Shown one piece after another: positions 1 to 5,420 of a stretch of DNA of 5,420 bases. How positions within the stretch are numbered: position 1 is the first letter of the stretch; every line of letters starts with the position of its first letter. The notes under the pieces were generated by a model. That model was given only the letters and a program-made list of their open reading frames with translations, was not told the origin of the DNA and ran no database searches. The position numbers were made by a program, and so were the translations under genes. This stretch comes from Trueperaceae bacterium. GTDB taxonomy: Bacteria; Deinococcota; Deinococci; Deinococcales; Trueperaceae. The stretch covers positions 1 to 5,420 of the forward strand of contig JAABSI010000147.1 in assembly GCA_011390455.1 (NCBI GenBank). Reading direction: 5' to 3'.

Positions 1-720
1 ATCCGCAACACGACGTGGACCAGCAGCCGCGACACCACCGTCGGCCTCAACTTCGCGCCCACGACCTTCTACGACGGTCAGGGCTTCATGGTGCGCCGCG
101 ATTCCGGCATCACCTCGCTCGCGGACTTCGAAGGTCAAGCCATCTGCGTGCAGTCGGGCACCACGACCGAGCTGAACCTGGCCGACGTCATGGCCGCGCT
201 CGACGTGCAGTACACCCCCGTCATCTTCGAGCAGGCGCCCCAGCTCGTCGCCGCCTACGACGACGGTCAGTGCGCCGGCTGGACCACCGACAAGTCGGGC
301 CTGGCTTCGTACCAGCCCAGCCTGCGCGTCCCTGCCGATCACATGATCCTCGACGTCACCATCTCCAAGGAGCCCCTCGGGCCCGCCGTGCTGCACGGCG
401 ACGACGAGTGGTTCGACGTGGTCTCGTGGACCGTGCAAGCGCTCATCAACGCCGAGGAGTTCGGCATCACCCAGGCGAACGTCGACTCCGCGCGCACCGC
501 CCCGAACCCGGACGTGCAGCGGATGCTCGGCACCGACCCGGCCAACGTCGAAGGCCTCGGGCTCGACGCCGACGCCTTCTACCGCGCCATCCTCGCGGTG
601 GGCAACTACGGCGAGATCTACGACCGCAACATCGGCGCCGACTCGCAGTTCGACATCCCGCGCGGCTTGAACCAGCTCTACGTCAACGGCGGCATCCTCT
701 ACGGGATCCCGTTCCGCTGA
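1..720 (+). CDS. aapJ: General L-amino-acid ABC transporter, substrate-binding protein (5' truncated)
   Basis: Extracytoplasmic solute-binding protein that captures a broad range of L-amino acids and delivers them to the AapQM permease. The reading frame is open from base 1 to TGA 718-720, giving 239 residues. The family is about 340 long, so roughly 100 N-terminal residues, including the signal peptide, lie outside the window. Family-typical stretches seen are RNTTWT (fragment residues 2-7), YYDGQGFMV-like FYDGQGFMVR (24-33), CVQSGTTTELNLAD (49-62), a second Cys at 91 followed by the TTD-SGL pattern, SKEPLGPAV, DDEWFD, ALINAEEFGITQANVD, and the terminal GNYGEIYDRNIG...RGLNQLYVNGGILYGIPFR. 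The two cysteines (49 and 91) probably form the disulphide common in this family (inference). It lies 206 bases upstream of aapQ on the same strand, separated by strong stem-loops. The assignment to AapJ/BztA rather than a narrow His/Arg/Gln binding protein rests on these motifs and on the AapQMP neighbours. No frameshift is seen. Confidence 0.95.
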   Translation: MRNTTWTSSRDTTVGLNFAPTTFYDGQGFMVRRDSGITSLADFEGQAICVQSGTTTELNLADVMAALDVQYTPVIFEQAPQLVAAYDDGQCAGWTTDKSGLASYQPSLRVPADHMILDVTISKEPLGPAVLHGDDEWFDVVSWTVQALINAEEFGITQANVDSARTAPNPDVQRMLGTDPANVEGLGLDADAFYRAILAVGNYGEIYDRNIGADSQFDIPRGLNQLYVNGGILYGIPFR

Positions 721-926: not shown

Positions 927-2738
927 ATGACGTCCCCGACCGCGCCCGAGCGGATCCCGTTCTGGCGCAACGTCAAGACCATCGGCGCCGTCGTTCAGGT
1001 GGCGTTCGTGGCGGCCATCGCGCTCGGCGTCGGCTTCCTCGTCTCGAACGTATTGACCGCGCTGCGCACGGCGAACCTGCCGGCCGACTTCTCCTGGATG
1101 GGGTCGCGGGCCGGGATCCCGATCGCCGAGACGCCCATCCCGTACGACGTGAGCGACCCCTACTGGCGCGCGCTGCTCATCGGCTTCCTGAACACCCTGA
1201 GGGTCGCGCTCATCGGCGTCGTGCTCGCATCGATCATCGGCGTGCTGGTCGGCGTCATGCGCTTGGCGTCCAACTGGCTCGTGCGCTCGATCGCGAGCGT
1301 GTACATCGAACTGCTCCGCAACATCCCGCTGGCCGTGCAGATCGTCTTCTGGTACTCCGCGGTGCTCTTGCCGATCCCGCCGCGCCTGAACAACCCGATC
1401 GAGTTGCCCGGCGGCGTGCTGCTCTCGAACGTCGGCCTGGCGTTCCCGTTCCTGTACCCGAGCTACCGGTTCGGCGCCTGGATCCCGTGGTTGGTCCTCG
1501 GGATCGTGCTCGCGGTGGTCGCGGCCGTCGTGCGCGACCGCGCCCTCAAGCGCGCCGACCGGGTCGGGCGCGTGTGGCCGTACCCGTTCGTCGCGTTCGT
1601 CGCGACCGCGTCGATCGGCTACGTGGTCGCATCGACCGGCACGGAGGTCCCGGATTCGTACGCGATCAACTTCAACGCCGAACGTGGCCGCGGCACGGTC
1701 TTCCGAGACCTCGACGGCGACGGCGTGCGCGGGGCCGGCGAGCCGGTCGCGCCCTTCGCGTCGACCCTCGTGCGGATCGAGGCCGCCCAGCTGACGACCA
1801 TCACCCAGAACCTGGTCGAGTCGCGGCGCAACGTCGACGCCACCTTCCGCTTCCCGCTCATCCGCGAGACCGACGTGGACTCGGTGGAGGTCGTGTTCGC
1901 GGACGAGGCGGCGGCGGAGGAGGCGGGGTACCGCTTGCACTACTTCGCGTTCCCCAGCCGCGGCCTGGTGTACGTCGACCGCGATGGCGACGGCGCCTTC
2001 ACCGAGGGCGAGCAGCGCGACGCCGACACGGGGCTCGGCTTCAACGGCATCGACCTGGTCATGCGGGTCGAGGGGTACGAGCGCCCCATCGTCGCCGATC
2101 GCGACGGGCAGGTGCGCACGCCGACCTTCGCGGCCCTGGTGCGCCCCGGGGACGCCGTCGAAGAGGCGCCCGCGGCCGCGCCGTCGTTCAGCGTCTTCGG
2201 GGCGATCCCAGACGCCACCGGCGCCGGCGCGGAGGCGCTCGCCGCCGACGTCGAGCTGCGTCCGGCCGGACCGCTCGTGCTGTCGCGCGTCCACGTGCCG
2301 GTCGGCACTTACGAGGGCGGCATGCGCTTCACGGTCAACTACCTGGCGCTGCTCCTGGCGCTCGTCGTCTACACCTCGGCCTTCATCGGCGAGATCGTCC
2401 GCGGCGGCATCCAAGCGGTGGCGAAGGGCCAGCGTGAGGCCGCGCAAGCGCTCGGCCTCTCGGGCTACCAGATCTTCACGCTGGTGGTGTTCCCGCAGGC
2501 GTTGCGCATCGTGCTGCCGCCGGTGATCAGCCAGTTCCTGAACCTGACCAAGAACAGCTCGCTCGCGCCCCTCGCCGGGTACGCGGAGCTCTTCGTGGTC
2601 GCCGGCATCGTGGCGAACCAGACCGGAGCGTCGATCCCGATCGCGCTGCTGCTGGTCGTCTCGTACCTCACCATCAGCCTGGTGTTCGCCTTCGTGCTCA
2701 ACGTGGTGAACGACCGGCTGGCCCTCGTGGAGCGCTGA
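927..2738 (+). CDS. aapQ: General L-amino-acid ABC transporter permease with a large inserted external domain
   Basis: Membrane permease that pairs with AapM to form the translocation path. The first third matches AapQ: a membrane segment at about 21-44, LLIGFLNTLRVALIG (83-97), then VYIELLRNIPLAVQIVFWY (125-143). The last quarter holds the permease core: YTSAFIGEIVRGGIQAV (482-498), the EAA loop EAAQALGL (504-511) with FPQALRIVLPP (522-532), LNLTKNSSLA (538-547), and the end NDRLALVER typical of AapQ. The protein is 603 residues against about 400 for the family. The excess is a block of roughly 200 residues at about 255-455, between the segment at 217-236 and that at 467-487. Its flanks, TEVPDSYAINFN (239-250) and GTYEGGMRF (460-468), both look like the normal short loop (DYP...FNFRGG-type). 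The basic loop 203-215 before it is probably cytoplasmic and the EAA loop after it certainly is, which places the insert outside. It ends one base before aapM, so the two are translationally linked. The gene is unbroken and its GC looks like that of its neighbours. Confidence 0.95.
   Translation: MTSPTAPERIPFWRNVKTIGAVVQVAFVAAIALGVGFLVSNVLTALRTANLPADFSWMGSRAGIPIAETPIPYDVSDPYWRALLIGFLNTLRVALIGVVLASIIGVLVGVMRLASNWLVRSIASVYIELLRNIPLAVQIVFWYSAVLLPIPPRLNNPIELPGGVLLSNVGLAFPFLYPSYRFGAWIPWLVLGIVLAVVAAVVRDRALKRADRVGRVWPYPFVAFVATASIGYVVASTGTEVPDSYAINFNAERGRGTVFRDLDGDGVRGAGEPVAPFASTLVRIEAAQLTTITQNLVESRRNVDATFRFPLIRETDVDSVEVVFADEAAAEEAGYRLHYFAFPSRGLVYVDRDGDGAFTEGEQRDADTGLGFNGIDLVMRVEGYERPIVADRDGQVRTPTFAALVRPGDAVEEAPAAAPSFSVFGAIPDATGAGAEALAADVELRPAGPLVLSRVHVPVGTYEGGMRFTVNYLALLLALVVYTSAFIGEIVRGGIQAVAKGQREAAQALGLSGYQIFTLVVFPQALRIVLPPVISQFLNLTKNSSLAPLAGYAELFVVAGIVANQTGASIPIALLLVVSYLTISLVFAFVLNVVNDRLALVER
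1689..2300 (+). other. Inserted extracytoplasmic domain of AapQ with two EF-hand-like calcium loops
   Basis: This segment encodes AapQ residues of about 255-458, absent from ordinary AapQ. Loop one starts at D261 (DLDGDG) and loop two at D351 (DRDGDG). Both fit the 12-residue calcium pattern with Asp at positions 1, 3 and 5, Gly at 6 and Glu at 12 (E272 and E362). Each is preceded by a matching hydrophobic lead (GTVFRD at 256-261, GLVYVD at 346-351), suggesting two related units of about 90 residues. A third, degenerate DRDG occurs at 391-394. An Ala/Pro-rich stretch (about 411-442) looks like a linker back to the membrane. The style recalls dockerin loops and SdrD B-like domains of surface proteins. 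Calcium binding is inferred from the motif; no function is established. Confidence 0.7.
2729..2732 (+). promoter_or_regulatory. Ribosome binding site for aapM inside the end of aapQ
   Basis: GGAG at 2729-2732, within the last codons of aapQ, lies seven bases before GTG 2740. It supports the GTG start and means ribosomes finishing aapQ are delivered straight to aapM. Confidence 0.65.
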
Positions 2739-2739
2739 A

Positions 2740-3960
2740 GTGTTCGAGGTCATCCCCCCCCGTCCCGCCCCCGTCGGCGTCGTCGGCGCCCGCGCCTGGC
2801 TGCGCTCGAACCTGTTCAGCTCGCCGGCGAACACGCTGCTGACGGTCGTCGCCGGCGTGGTCGTCGGCTTCGCGCTCGTCAACCTGATCGGCTTCATCTT
2901 CTTCGACGCCCACTGGGCCCAGGTCTGGCGCAACCAGAAGCTCTTCGGCGCGTACCGCTACCCCACCGAGCTGCTGTGGCGGCCGCTGTCGATCGCTGCG
3001 GTGATGATGGGGCTGCTGGGCGCGATGTCGGGCGCCGCGCGCGGCAACGAGATCGTCCGCGGCGCCTTCTTCTGGATCAGCGGCTTCGTCGCCGTCGTCG
3101 CGGTCGTGGCGCTGCTGTTCTGGCCCTCCGTGCGCCTCTGGTGGACGCTCGTCCTCGTCGTGGCGGCGGTCGGCTTCTTCCTGGGACGCGCCGCACCGCG
3201 CCCGGTGCTCAAGGCGCTGCCGTGGGCGTGGGCGGCGTGGCTCTTCCTCGGCTTCTTCGTCCTCTACGGCGTGCAGCCGGGGGAGGGCCTGCTGCGCGTG
3301 GTGCCCGCCCGCGAGTGGGGCGGCTTCCTGCTCACGCTGATCCTGTTCACCGGGATCGTGCCGAGCTTCCCGCTGGGGGTCGCGCTCGCCCTCGGTCGCC
3401 GCAGCAAGCTGCCGGCGATCAAGTACACGTGCATCGCCTTCATCGAGATCGTGCGCGGGGCGCCGCTGATCATGTGGCTGTTCATCGCCTCGCTGTTGCT
3501 GCCGTTGCTCCTGAACACCGACCCGAACAACCTCCCCTCGATCCTGCGCGCGTACGTGGCCATCACCTTGTTCTCGGCCGCCTACATGGCCGAGAACGTG
3601 CGCGGGGGCCTGCAGGCCGTCCCCAGCGGGCAGTCGGAGGCGGCGCGCGCGCTCGGCCTGAACGGCTGGCAGACGATGCGCCTCATCGTGCTGCCGCAGG
3701 CGCTCCGGGCCGTCATCCCGGCGATCGTCGGGCAGGCGATCGGCCTCTTCAAGGACACCTCGCTGGTCTTCATCGTCGGCCTCGCCGACTTCTTCCGGGT
3801 CGCCGAGCTGGTGTCGGTGCAGCCGGAATCGCTGCTCGTCACCGGCGGCGTCAAGCTCGAGGTCTACCTGTTCGTCGCCACCGTGTACTTCTTCTTCGCC
3901 TACCGCATGTCGGCCGCGAGCCGGCAACTCGAGAAGCGTTTGGGGGTGGGGACGCGATGA
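2740..3960 (+). CDS. aapM: General L-amino-acid ABC transporter permease, second subunit
   Basis: Partner permease of AapQ, 406 residues, a normal length for AapM (roughly 380-400). The N-terminal half carries hydrophobic segments at about 30-53, 82-97, 109-128, 132-149 and 160-177. The core begins at [36 protein letters not shown] (193-228). It continues with [23 protein letters not shown] (234-256) and [17 protein letters not shown] (282-298), then the EAA loop that docks on the ATPase (EAARALGL 300-307, [10 protein letters not shown] 318-327). The last core stretch is [18 protein letters not shown] (335-352), a hallmark of this subunit. Translation starts at GTG 2740, one base after the aapQ stop, with GGAG seven bases upstream. 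An eight-C run (2754-2761) sits at codons 5-8. Unlike AapQ it has no extra domain. The stop overlaps an ATG (ATGA at 3957-3960), and aapP follows after 37 bases. Confidence 0.96.
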
Positions 3961-3997: not shown

Positions 3998-4786
3998 ATG
4001 AGCACGCCGAGCGCAGCCGCGCCCGCCCCCGTCCGCGCCGACGCCCCCTCGGGCGGCGAGCGGATCATCGAGATCGATGCGCTCAACAAGTGGTTCGGGG
4101 AGTTCCACGTGCTCCGCGACATCCACTTGTCGGTGAACAAAGGTGAGGTGGTCGTGGTCATCGGACCGTCCGGTTCGGGCAAGTCCACGCTCATCCGCTG
4201 CATCAACCACCTCGAGGAGCACCAGCAGGGGCGCATCGTCGTCGACGGCACCGAGCTGACCGACGACGTCCGCAACATCGACCACGTCCGGCGCGAGACC
4301 GGCATGGTGTTCCAGTCCTTCAACCTGTTCCCGCACTTGACGGTGATGGAGAACATCACCCTGGCGCCCATCCGGGTGCGCAAGTGGAAGAAGAGCAAGG
4401 CCGAGGAGCGCGCGCGCTACTTCCTCGAGAAGGTCGGCATCCCGGAGCAGGCGGAGAAGTTCCCCGGGCAGTTGTCGGGCGGTCAGCAGCAGCGCGTCGC
4501 GATCGCGCGGGCGCTGACCATGGGGCCCAAGGTGATGCTGTTCGACGAGCCCACGTCGGCGCTCGACCCCGAGGTCATCGGCGAGGTGCTCGACGTCATG
4601 GTCAACCTGGCCAAGGAAGGCATGACGATGATCGTCGTGACCCACGAGATGGGCTTCGCGCGCGAGGTCGGCGACCGGGTGGTCTTCATGGACGCCGGTC
4701 AGATCGTGGAGGTCGGTTCGCCGGAGCACTTCTTCACCGCGCCGCGCGAGGAGCGGACCAAGAACTTCCTCTCCAAGATCCTGTGA
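3998..4786 (+). CDS. aapP: General L-amino-acid ABC transporter, ATP-binding subunit
   Basis: Cytoplasmic ATPase that dimerises on the EAA loops of AapQ and AapM and drives amino-acid uptake by ATP hydrolysis. It has 262 residues, a normal length, with a short Ala/Pro-rich N-terminal extension (about 2-20) before [20 protein letters not shown]. All motifs are intact: Walker [10 protein letters not shown] (56-64), Q-loop Q106 in [11 protein letters not shown], signature LSGGQ (159-163), Walker B VMLFDE (179-184), D-loop SALD (187-190) and switch His 216 in VVTHEMGFA. This is the polar amino-acid (PAAT) ATPase class. Assignment to AapP rather than GlnQ/HisP rests mainly on the AapJQM neighbours and the ending [11 protein letters not shown], close to the usual ERTKLFLSQIL. 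A good GGAGG precedes ATG 3998. Its final codons and stop are repeated in frame immediately downstream (see the repeat entry). Confidence 0.96.
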
Positions 4787-4866
4787 CGCCCGCGGAGCGG
4801 CGCGCCGCCGCGCGAGGAGCGGACCAAGAGCTTCCTCTCCAAGATCTTGTGACGCCTGCGCAGCGC
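4741..4866 (+). repeat. Tandem direct repeat duplicating the 3' end and stop codon of aapP
   Basis: Copy one is 4741-4800 and copy two 4807-4866, with a 66-base period (22 codons). Aligned over 60 bases they differ at five positions (4764/4830, 4781/4847, 4791/4857, 4795/4861 and 4800/4866), and 48 of the first 50 match. Copy one encodes the real AapP ending ([14 protein letters not shown] and stop). Copy two, in the same frame beyond that stop, would encode PREERTKSFLSKIL and a second TGA (4850-4852). It has no start of its own and is most simply a remnant of a local tandem duplication. The junction holds the palindrome CGGCGCGCCG (4798-4807). No intrinsic terminator with a T-run is visible after aapP. 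Confidence 0.9.
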
Positions 4867-4906
4867 GACGCGGCCGCCTTCACAGCACCGGTGCCGCGCC
4901 CCGGAC

Positions 4907-4949: not shown

Positions 4950-5420
4950 ATGAGCGATGCGCCGACCCCCCGCGGGCTCCGCATGGCCGACCTGCTCAAG
5001 GGCATGGTCGCGCGCGGCGCCAGCGACATCCACCTGCAGGCCGGCGCGGCGCCGCACCTTCGGCTCGACGGCGAACTCGTCGCGTACGAGGGCGTGCCGA
5101 TGCTCACGCCCGAACAGACCGAGCAGATCGCGCTGGCGATGATGACCGACGGCCAGCGCGAGCTGTTCCGCCATCGCCACGAGCTCGACTTCGCCTTCAC
5201 CATCCCGTCGGTCGCCCGCTTCCGGTGCAACGTCTTCCGGCAGCGTGGCTCGGTCGGCATGGTGATGCGCGTCGTCGCCGACGCGATCCCGAGCTTCGAA
5301 GCGCTCGGTCTTCCGCCGGCGGTCGTCAGCGAGCTCGCGAGCCAACCGCGCGGCCTCGTGCTCATCACCGGACCGACCGGCTCGGGCAAGTCCACGACGC
5401 TCGCGGCGATGGTCGACTTC
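4950..5420 (+). CDS. pilT: Type IV pilus twitching-motility retraction ATPase PilT (3' truncated)
   Basis: Cytoplasmic hexameric ATPase that powers retraction of type IV pili. 157 codons are present of a family length of about 350-380, and the frame is open to the window end. Seen are the family N-terminus with LLKGMVARGASDIHLQAG (15-32), the PAS-like domain including ELDFAFTIP (78-86) and RFRCNVFRQRGSVG (90-103), then LGLPPAV (119-125), QPRGLVLITGPTGSGKSTTLA (132-152) with Walker A at 141-149, and AAMVDF at the edge. The Asp box, Walker B, His box and C-terminal motif lie beyond the window. The short N-terminus separates it from PilB-type assembly ATPases; PilU cannot be excluded. ATG 4950 has GAAGG (4938-4942) seven bases upstream and overlaps the stop of a tiny ORF (ATGA). 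The alternative start ATG 4983 (Met12) is possible. No functional tie to the transporter is evident. Confidence 0.93.
   Translation, partial: MSDAPTPRGLRMADLLKGMVARGASDIHLQAGAAPHLRLDGELVAYEGVPMLTPEQTEQIALAMMTDGQRELFRHRHELDFAFTIPSVARFRCNVFRQRGSVGMVMRVVADAIPSFEALGLPPAVVSELASQPRGLVLITGPTGSGKSTTLAAMVDF

Follow-up and report, generated by a model that had tools for sequence, protein, structure and literature searches.

An amino-acid importer operon with an enlarged permease subunit

The window, by which we mean the whole 5,420-nucleotide stretch of contig JAABSI010000147.1 from a Trueperaceae bacterium (assembly GCA_011390455.1), contains the genes of an ATP-binding cassette (ABC) importer for amino acids, in which the permease subunit AapQ carries an additional block of predicted extracytoplasmic domains. 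The importer genes lie on the forward strand in the order aapJ-aapQ-aapM-aapP, which is that of the AapJQMP operon. They comprise the 3′ part of aapJ, for the amino-acid binding protein (1..720; NCBIfam TIGR01096, E 4.4e-29), whose N-terminus falls outside the window, and, as identified by open reading frame calling, Pfam and NCBIfam, aapQ (927..2738; 603 residues), aapM for the second permease subunit, which has no comparable insert (2740..3960; 406 residues), and aapP for the ATPase subunit (3998..4786). Relatives of this aapJ encode an N-terminal signal peptide and no lipobox, as judged by eye. At the related loci, where only aapJ and aapM were located, aapJ likewise precedes aapQ and aapM follows it. 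The closest named relatives, taken from the best 80 of 547, are Trueperaceae metagenome bins of Deinococcota, with locus L001 matching at 88% over residues 1-522.

The aapQ reading frame is intact, from the ATG at 927 to the stop codon at 2736-2738, and both halves of AapQ are recognisable, as had been stated in an original prediction made from the letters of the window alone. HEQRo_perm_3TM (NCBIfam TIGR01726) covers residues 81-145 with 49.4 bits (cut-off 42.2), BPD_transp_1 (PF00528) is the sole Pfam match, at residues 470-598 (E 3.6e-13), and no family matches between the two. With its BPD_transp_1 core, its EAA region and its N-terminal part, AapQ is a member of the polar amino-acid ABC permeases.

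The region between the two halves is greatly enlarged. The equivalent of residues 217-480 has 264 residues in the window AapQ, compared with 54-64 in 68 of the 70 loci L011-L080, which were drawn from the same 80 relatives and of which none is titled Deinococcota. The two exceptions are L011, with 135 residues and an insert, and L061, with 41 residues in a stretch clipped by the start of the locus, the visible part of which carries no insert. The extra sequence, of about 210 residues, lies in the loop between transmembrane helices TM5 (residues 218-235; 1578..1631) and TM6 (residues 470-497; 2334..2417), and the inserted block spans approximately residues 250-460 (1674..2306), all on the forward strand, as are the other AapQ features given below. 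We place the block on the extracytoplasmic side because the EAA-type coupling helix that follows TM6 (residues 500-508; 2424..2450), recognised in the structural model and in BPD_transp_1, is cytoplasmic, as is established for this permease family, and because a basic stretch, RDRALKRADRVGR (residues 203-215), precedes TM5 on the cytoplasmic side. By prediction, AapQ therefore contains a folded extracytoplasmic insertion. Loop lengths and model topology thus bear out the extra external domain of about 200 residues originally proposed at 1689-2300 (residues 255-458), which fits the extent of the block.

The full-length AlphaFold2 model, computed from 51 sequences, has a predicted TM-score (pTM) of 0.61, with a moderately confident membrane part, and together with the alignment it divides the block into four parts. 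Domain 1 (residues 252-343; 1680..1955) is nearly all beta, with a short helix at residues 327-333, and domain 2 (residues 344-404; 1956..2138) is also beta, with a conserved C-terminal VADRDGQVRTPxF. They are followed by a variable linker rich in Ala and Pro (residues 405-438; 2139..2240), whose predicted local distance difference test (pLDDT) score is <50 at residues 409-434 and which is much shorter in L105-L107, and by a closing segment with a strand and the consensus xLxAxVELxPxGPLVLSRVHVPV (residues 439-461; 2241..2309).

Distribution of the block in Deinococci

A search with the block, in which 7993 candidates were scored, retrieved 52 proteins, the window's own included, all of them listed with PF00528. 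Fifty-one have 574-626 residues and one (P0030) has 356, and was excluded from the alignment, so that 51 of the 52 matches were used. The 51 database proteins other than the window's own retain the block at 41-86% identity, which argues that it is more than a product of chance.

We also searched 111 Deinococci genomes in six frames with the block profile, and 27 contain the block, in one copy each and inside AapQ; weak matches elsewhere occur in G063 (E 0.0071), where the match overlaps an SdrD_B domain (E 3.2e-11), and in G110 (E 0.0028). An AapQ match at E <= 1e-30 was obtained in 43 of the 111 genomes, namely these 27 and 16 without the block, in which the AapQ open frames have 368-470 codons, apart from one 198-codon piece. 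The block is a conserved trait of one Truepera-type Deinococcota lineage and is not general in AapQ. The view that most AapQ proteins have it is contradicted in the loci and genomes compared, where the ordinary protein has, as anticipated, about 400 residues with a short loop at this point. One genome, G092, has both kinds of AapQ, with the block (L103) and without it (L167, L181), and its block-free AapQ adjoins an AapJ 46% identical to that of the window.

Calcium-type loops and fold of the two domains

The paired calcium-loop motifs of the original prediction are located exactly where it placed them, loop 1 at D261-E272 (1707..1742) and loop 2 at D351-E362 (1977..2012). When a loop is counted as complete with D/N, D/N/S, D/N/S and E/D at positions 1, 3, 5 and 12, loop 2 is complete in 51 of the 51 aligned sequences, the window included, and loop 1 in 35, being deleted or degenerate in 16; these counts are not independent, because the aligned rows are related. 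In loop 2, positions 1 and 12 are D and E, respectively, in all 51 sequences, position 3 is D (30) or N (21), position 5 is D (27), N (21) or S (3), position 7 may be any residue, and position 9 is D (30), T (17), S (3) or E (1). According to excerpts of PMC3123361, Dx[DN]xDG loops are used by at least 12 families, EF-hands among them, and a repeated convergent origin of the motif is probable.

The EF-hand/dockerin pattern proposed for these motifs holds for the 12-residue loop and fails for the fold. In the AlphaFold2 models both domains are nearly all beta, with high confidence, and strands, not helices, adjoin both loops, so that neither the helix-loop-helix of an EF-hand nor the two loop-helix units of a dockerin are seen. 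Searched by itself at E <= 10, the block matches no Pfam family, EF-hand, dockerin and wall-binding families included, under search filters that discard most weak matches, and it does not reach the gathering score of SdrD_B (PF17210).

Profile comparisons point in another direction. A profile built on 19 SdrD_B-type sequences (out of 20 extracted from 30 Deinococci loci in which PF17210 has matches, the sequences not being individually verified against that family) matches domain 1 at 96% with a score of 50.4 and domain 2 at 93% with a score of 37.0, where 60 column shuffles gave maxima of 17.7 and 17.4, respectively; the loop part of this match is partly built in, because the set was selected by a loop-motif pattern. 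A dockerin profile of nine pieces from 20 loci, chosen by the same kind of motif, gives 12.5 (0.6%) for domain 1, 15.8 (3.7%) for domain 2 and 16.9 (1.6%) for the whole block, with shuffle maxima of 15.4 and 14.8 for domains 1 and 2. An EF-hand or dockerin domain was rejected on the strands at the loops, the lack of a Pfam match and the dockerin scores near shuffle level.

When the loops are masked, the tail of neither domain matches the SdrD_B profile significantly (for each tail, 14 of 100 shuffles do as well), and the claim of homology to SdrD_B is limited for this reason. Compared directly, domains 1 and 2 match at 92% over 26 columns, which cover only the motif region. A Foldseek search of the block against the PDB gave nothing at E <= 0.001, the best match being 6kgf_C (E 0.037, probability 0.13), which is probably a cohesin chain. 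MalF is absent from the 50 matches listed for the block, which excludes nothing; the full model retrieves ABC permeases first, with MalF chains among the matches, presumably through the permease core. The block profile also matched ferredoxin weakly (E ~0.01), which was taken as chance, single pieces having i-Evalues of 9-15. In the models, the block domains look like SdrD_B/CnaB-type (prealbumin-like) sandwiches rather than EF-hands and, judged by profile comparison, the block, domain 1 included, is SdrD_B-like, short of an assigned SdrD_B membership.

PF17210 domains as such are common in Deinococci, with matches at E <= 0.01 in 85 of the 111 genomes, 55 of them over the cut-off, and they often lie within open frames of 1000-6000 codons.

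One-domain AapQ proteins in Caldilineales and origin of the block

The insert of L011, from a Caldilineaceae bin, is shared within its order. Eight of 46 Caldilineales genomes (L011, L192-L198) have an AapQ with one domain of about 80 residues in the same loop, 27 have an AapQ match without the domain (22 fetched, with loops of 26-27 residues in the measured stretch, and five taken from the match table), and the remaining 11 lack one at E <= 1e-40. The L011 domain scores 29.0 bits against SdrD_B, for a cut-off of 29.7, and the database lists PF17210 for P0054-P0056. The Caldilineales set (n=10), which was not selected by motif, aligns with the SdrD_B-type profile along 69 columns (98%), with domain 1 along 56 (95%, score 46.2) and with domain 2 along 48 (95%, score 42.3), 0 of 100 shuffles being as good for either domain; with the dockerin profile it aligns along 13 columns (24%). 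Loop-masked domain 1 matches the Caldilineales tail weakly, with 1 of 100 shuffles as good.

Trees of the AapQ core were computed with the insert columns omitted, using the five of ten fetched ordinary Deinococci AapQ regions that were recovered; eight rows (long branch, odd make-up, near-copies) were dropped from the 49-row set before the 58-row tree. The Truepera-type rows form one side of a branch with a support of 100/100, with no block-free AapQ inside the clade among the rows sampled, and the one-domain Caldilineales proteins adjoin them with 93/87 (49 rows) and 83/68 (58 rows), so that, from the core sequences, they are possibly the sister group. A tree in which all the decorated loops share one origin, computed with 32 rows, is not the best one and is not rejected (p-AU, approximately unbiased test, 0.33). 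These trees would fit a single gain with a later expansion from one domain to two, without establishing it.

An AapJ-like insert in a third group of AapQ proteins

In a sample of 301 Chloroflexota genomes, AapQ matches at E <= 1e-60 were obtained in six, which were the ones assessed. One of them, G311, has in the TM5-TM6 loop of AapQ some 144 residues that resemble a lobe of the organism's own AapJ (BLASTP E 2e-7), which is encoded by a separate aapJ upstream of aapQ. This AapQ (P0057; L226:2855-4483, forward strand) shares the insert, which has no Pfam match, with 14 database proteins out of 2904 candidates, forming the group P0057-P0071. A 14-row profile, built from P0057 and the sharers other than P0066 (13 of 14), matches an AapJ profile at 97% with a score of 74.5, the maximum of 60 shuffles being 19.9. 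No such resemblance to AapJ is seen in the Truepera-type block (hhalign 0.1-0.4%).

Other features of the window

Directly 3′ of the importer operon lies the 5′ start of a pilT-type pilus ATPase gene (4950..5420; NCBIfam). A 66-base tandem duplication (4740-4877; 2.1 copies, 90% match) extends across the 3′ terminus of aapP, with its second copy past the aapP stop codon. Between aapJ and aapQ, positions 728-773 form a very stable predicted hairpin (z -2.5; 1 of 200 shuffles equally stable) with no T run, which could restrict read-through or shield the aapJ message.

Possible role of the block

By analogy with the maltose importer, the most likely reading, to which we give an even chance, is that the block is a calcium-stiffened platform on which AapJ is seated, working like the P2 domain of MalF (MalF-P2). 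It would stand on the face where AapJ docks and seat AapJ on the channel; calcium, held by loop 2 throughout the lineage and by loop 1 in some of its members, would keep the block rigid without acting as a switch. The docking role is suggested by the position of the block, its restriction to AapQ and the parallel of the AapJ-lobe insert, and calcium is proposed as a stiffener because staphylococcal B domains, in excerpts of PMC6232131, gain mechanical strength from it. Tentatively, and with a lower probability, the TM5-TM6 loop of AapQ may be a docking platform that was enlarged by domain capture in separate lineages and serves as a receptor for the importer's own binding protein. The captured part would be a single beta domain in some Caldilineales, a pair of calcium-loop domains in the Truepera-type proteins and a portion of AapJ in another group.

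Two results bear on a platform for AapJ. The first speaks against a simple tether, as lipid anchoring of AapJ does not track the block. In Deinococci loci with a readable AapJ N-terminus no lipobox was seen by eye, with or without the block (L085 is clipped and four loci yielded no AapJ), and in the Chloroflexota loci L011, L012, L014 and L015 AapJ is lipoprotein-like both with and without the insert. The block as a replacement for an AapJ lipid anchor was rejected for this lack of association, the lipoboxes being judged by eye. The second is a mirror-tree analysis, which is unspecific, as the block shows just as much residual co-variation with AapM (0.27) as with AapJ (0.27); it used 22 of 28 candidates (27 loci and the window), after removal of rows that lacked a usable AapJ and AapM.

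In surface proteins, SdrD_B domains usually serve as stalk modules, and the block could likewise be a spacer or anchor in the envelope, its beta domains binding a cell-wall or outer-layer component and fixing the importer in place. The resemblance to SdrD_B modules and the abundance of PF17210 domains in Deinococci, often in long open frames, speak for this role, which we nevertheless consider rather unlikely, since the filtered Pfam search found no wall-binding family, about 160 ordered residues would probably be short for an envelope span, and the block is confined to AapQ, with a single copy in each genome and none on other membrane proteins.

A tolerated passenger, kept without a specific role as it does no harm, would be consistent with the highly variable linker and with a block whose evolutionary rate is roughly double that of the AapQ core (mean distances over 22 rows, 1.09 vs 0.58). 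The 23 invariant columns of residues 250-460 in the 51 aligned sequences, and the absence of block-free AapQ from the sampled rows of the clade, make this improbable. Similarly improbable is a control of uptake by calcium, in which binding or loss at loop 2 would switch transport: the permitted side chains are present in all 51 aligned sequences, but the closest look-alike, the staphylococcal B domain, uses calcium for mechanical strength (PMC6232131, in excerpt), no regulatory partner is visible among the window genes and loop 1 is dispensable. Finally, a true EF-hand/dockerin pair that docks a cohesin-like partner is scarcely credible with strands flanking the loops, HH probabilities of only 0.6% and 3.7% and no Pfam match to either family, even if the 12-residue pattern fits both loops and the dockerin score of domain 2 is just over its shuffle maximum.

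Comparison with known systems

Literature searches, which did not cover most subscription journals, gave no report of this block. The window AapQ shares gene order, core helices and EAA region with the AapQ of AapJQMP, the general L-amino-acid importer, but has 603 residues instead of about 400, with the two-domain block in the TM5-TM6 loop, and the block is a lineage-wide variant of this known importer. The one-domain AapQ of Caldilineales also carries an SdrD_B-like insert in this loop, with one domain of about 80 residues instead of two and a calcium-type loop that lacks the closing E at position 12. With the staphylococcal B domains (SdrD_B, PF17210) the block has in common the beta structure, a Dx[DN]xDG...E loop after a strand and the strand-loop-strand profile match; it differs from them in being inside a membrane permease, in having no Pfam match even at the permissive threshold used, and in its parts beyond the loop, which have no detectable match.

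The seating of binding proteins on importer channels, and their release, has been worked out in few systems, above all in the maltose importer. If the TM5-TM6 loop is a docking platform enlarged by domain capture, the importer would carry a built-in receptor for its own binding protein, stiffened by calcium in one lineage, and calcium-stiffened beta domains known from surface adhesins would gain a transporter setting. A natural and removable docking-type domain, with relatives that have one domain or none and with the parallel of the AapJ part, would allow clean comparisons.

In OpuA and GlnPQ the binding domains are fused to the permease. These transporters carry whole extracytoplasmic substrate-binding domains (PMC11065425, in excerpt), unlike the Truepera-type block with its lack of relation to AapJ. 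The insertion of MalF-P2 lies between TM3 and TM4, and so in a different loop. MalF-P2 (residues 91-271) is, as predicted for the block, a large folded extracytoplasmic insertion in one permease subunit, and a segment of it directly contacts the binding protein MalE (excerpts of PMC3150292); it belongs to another importer subfamily, and the same excerpts make no mention of calcium loops.
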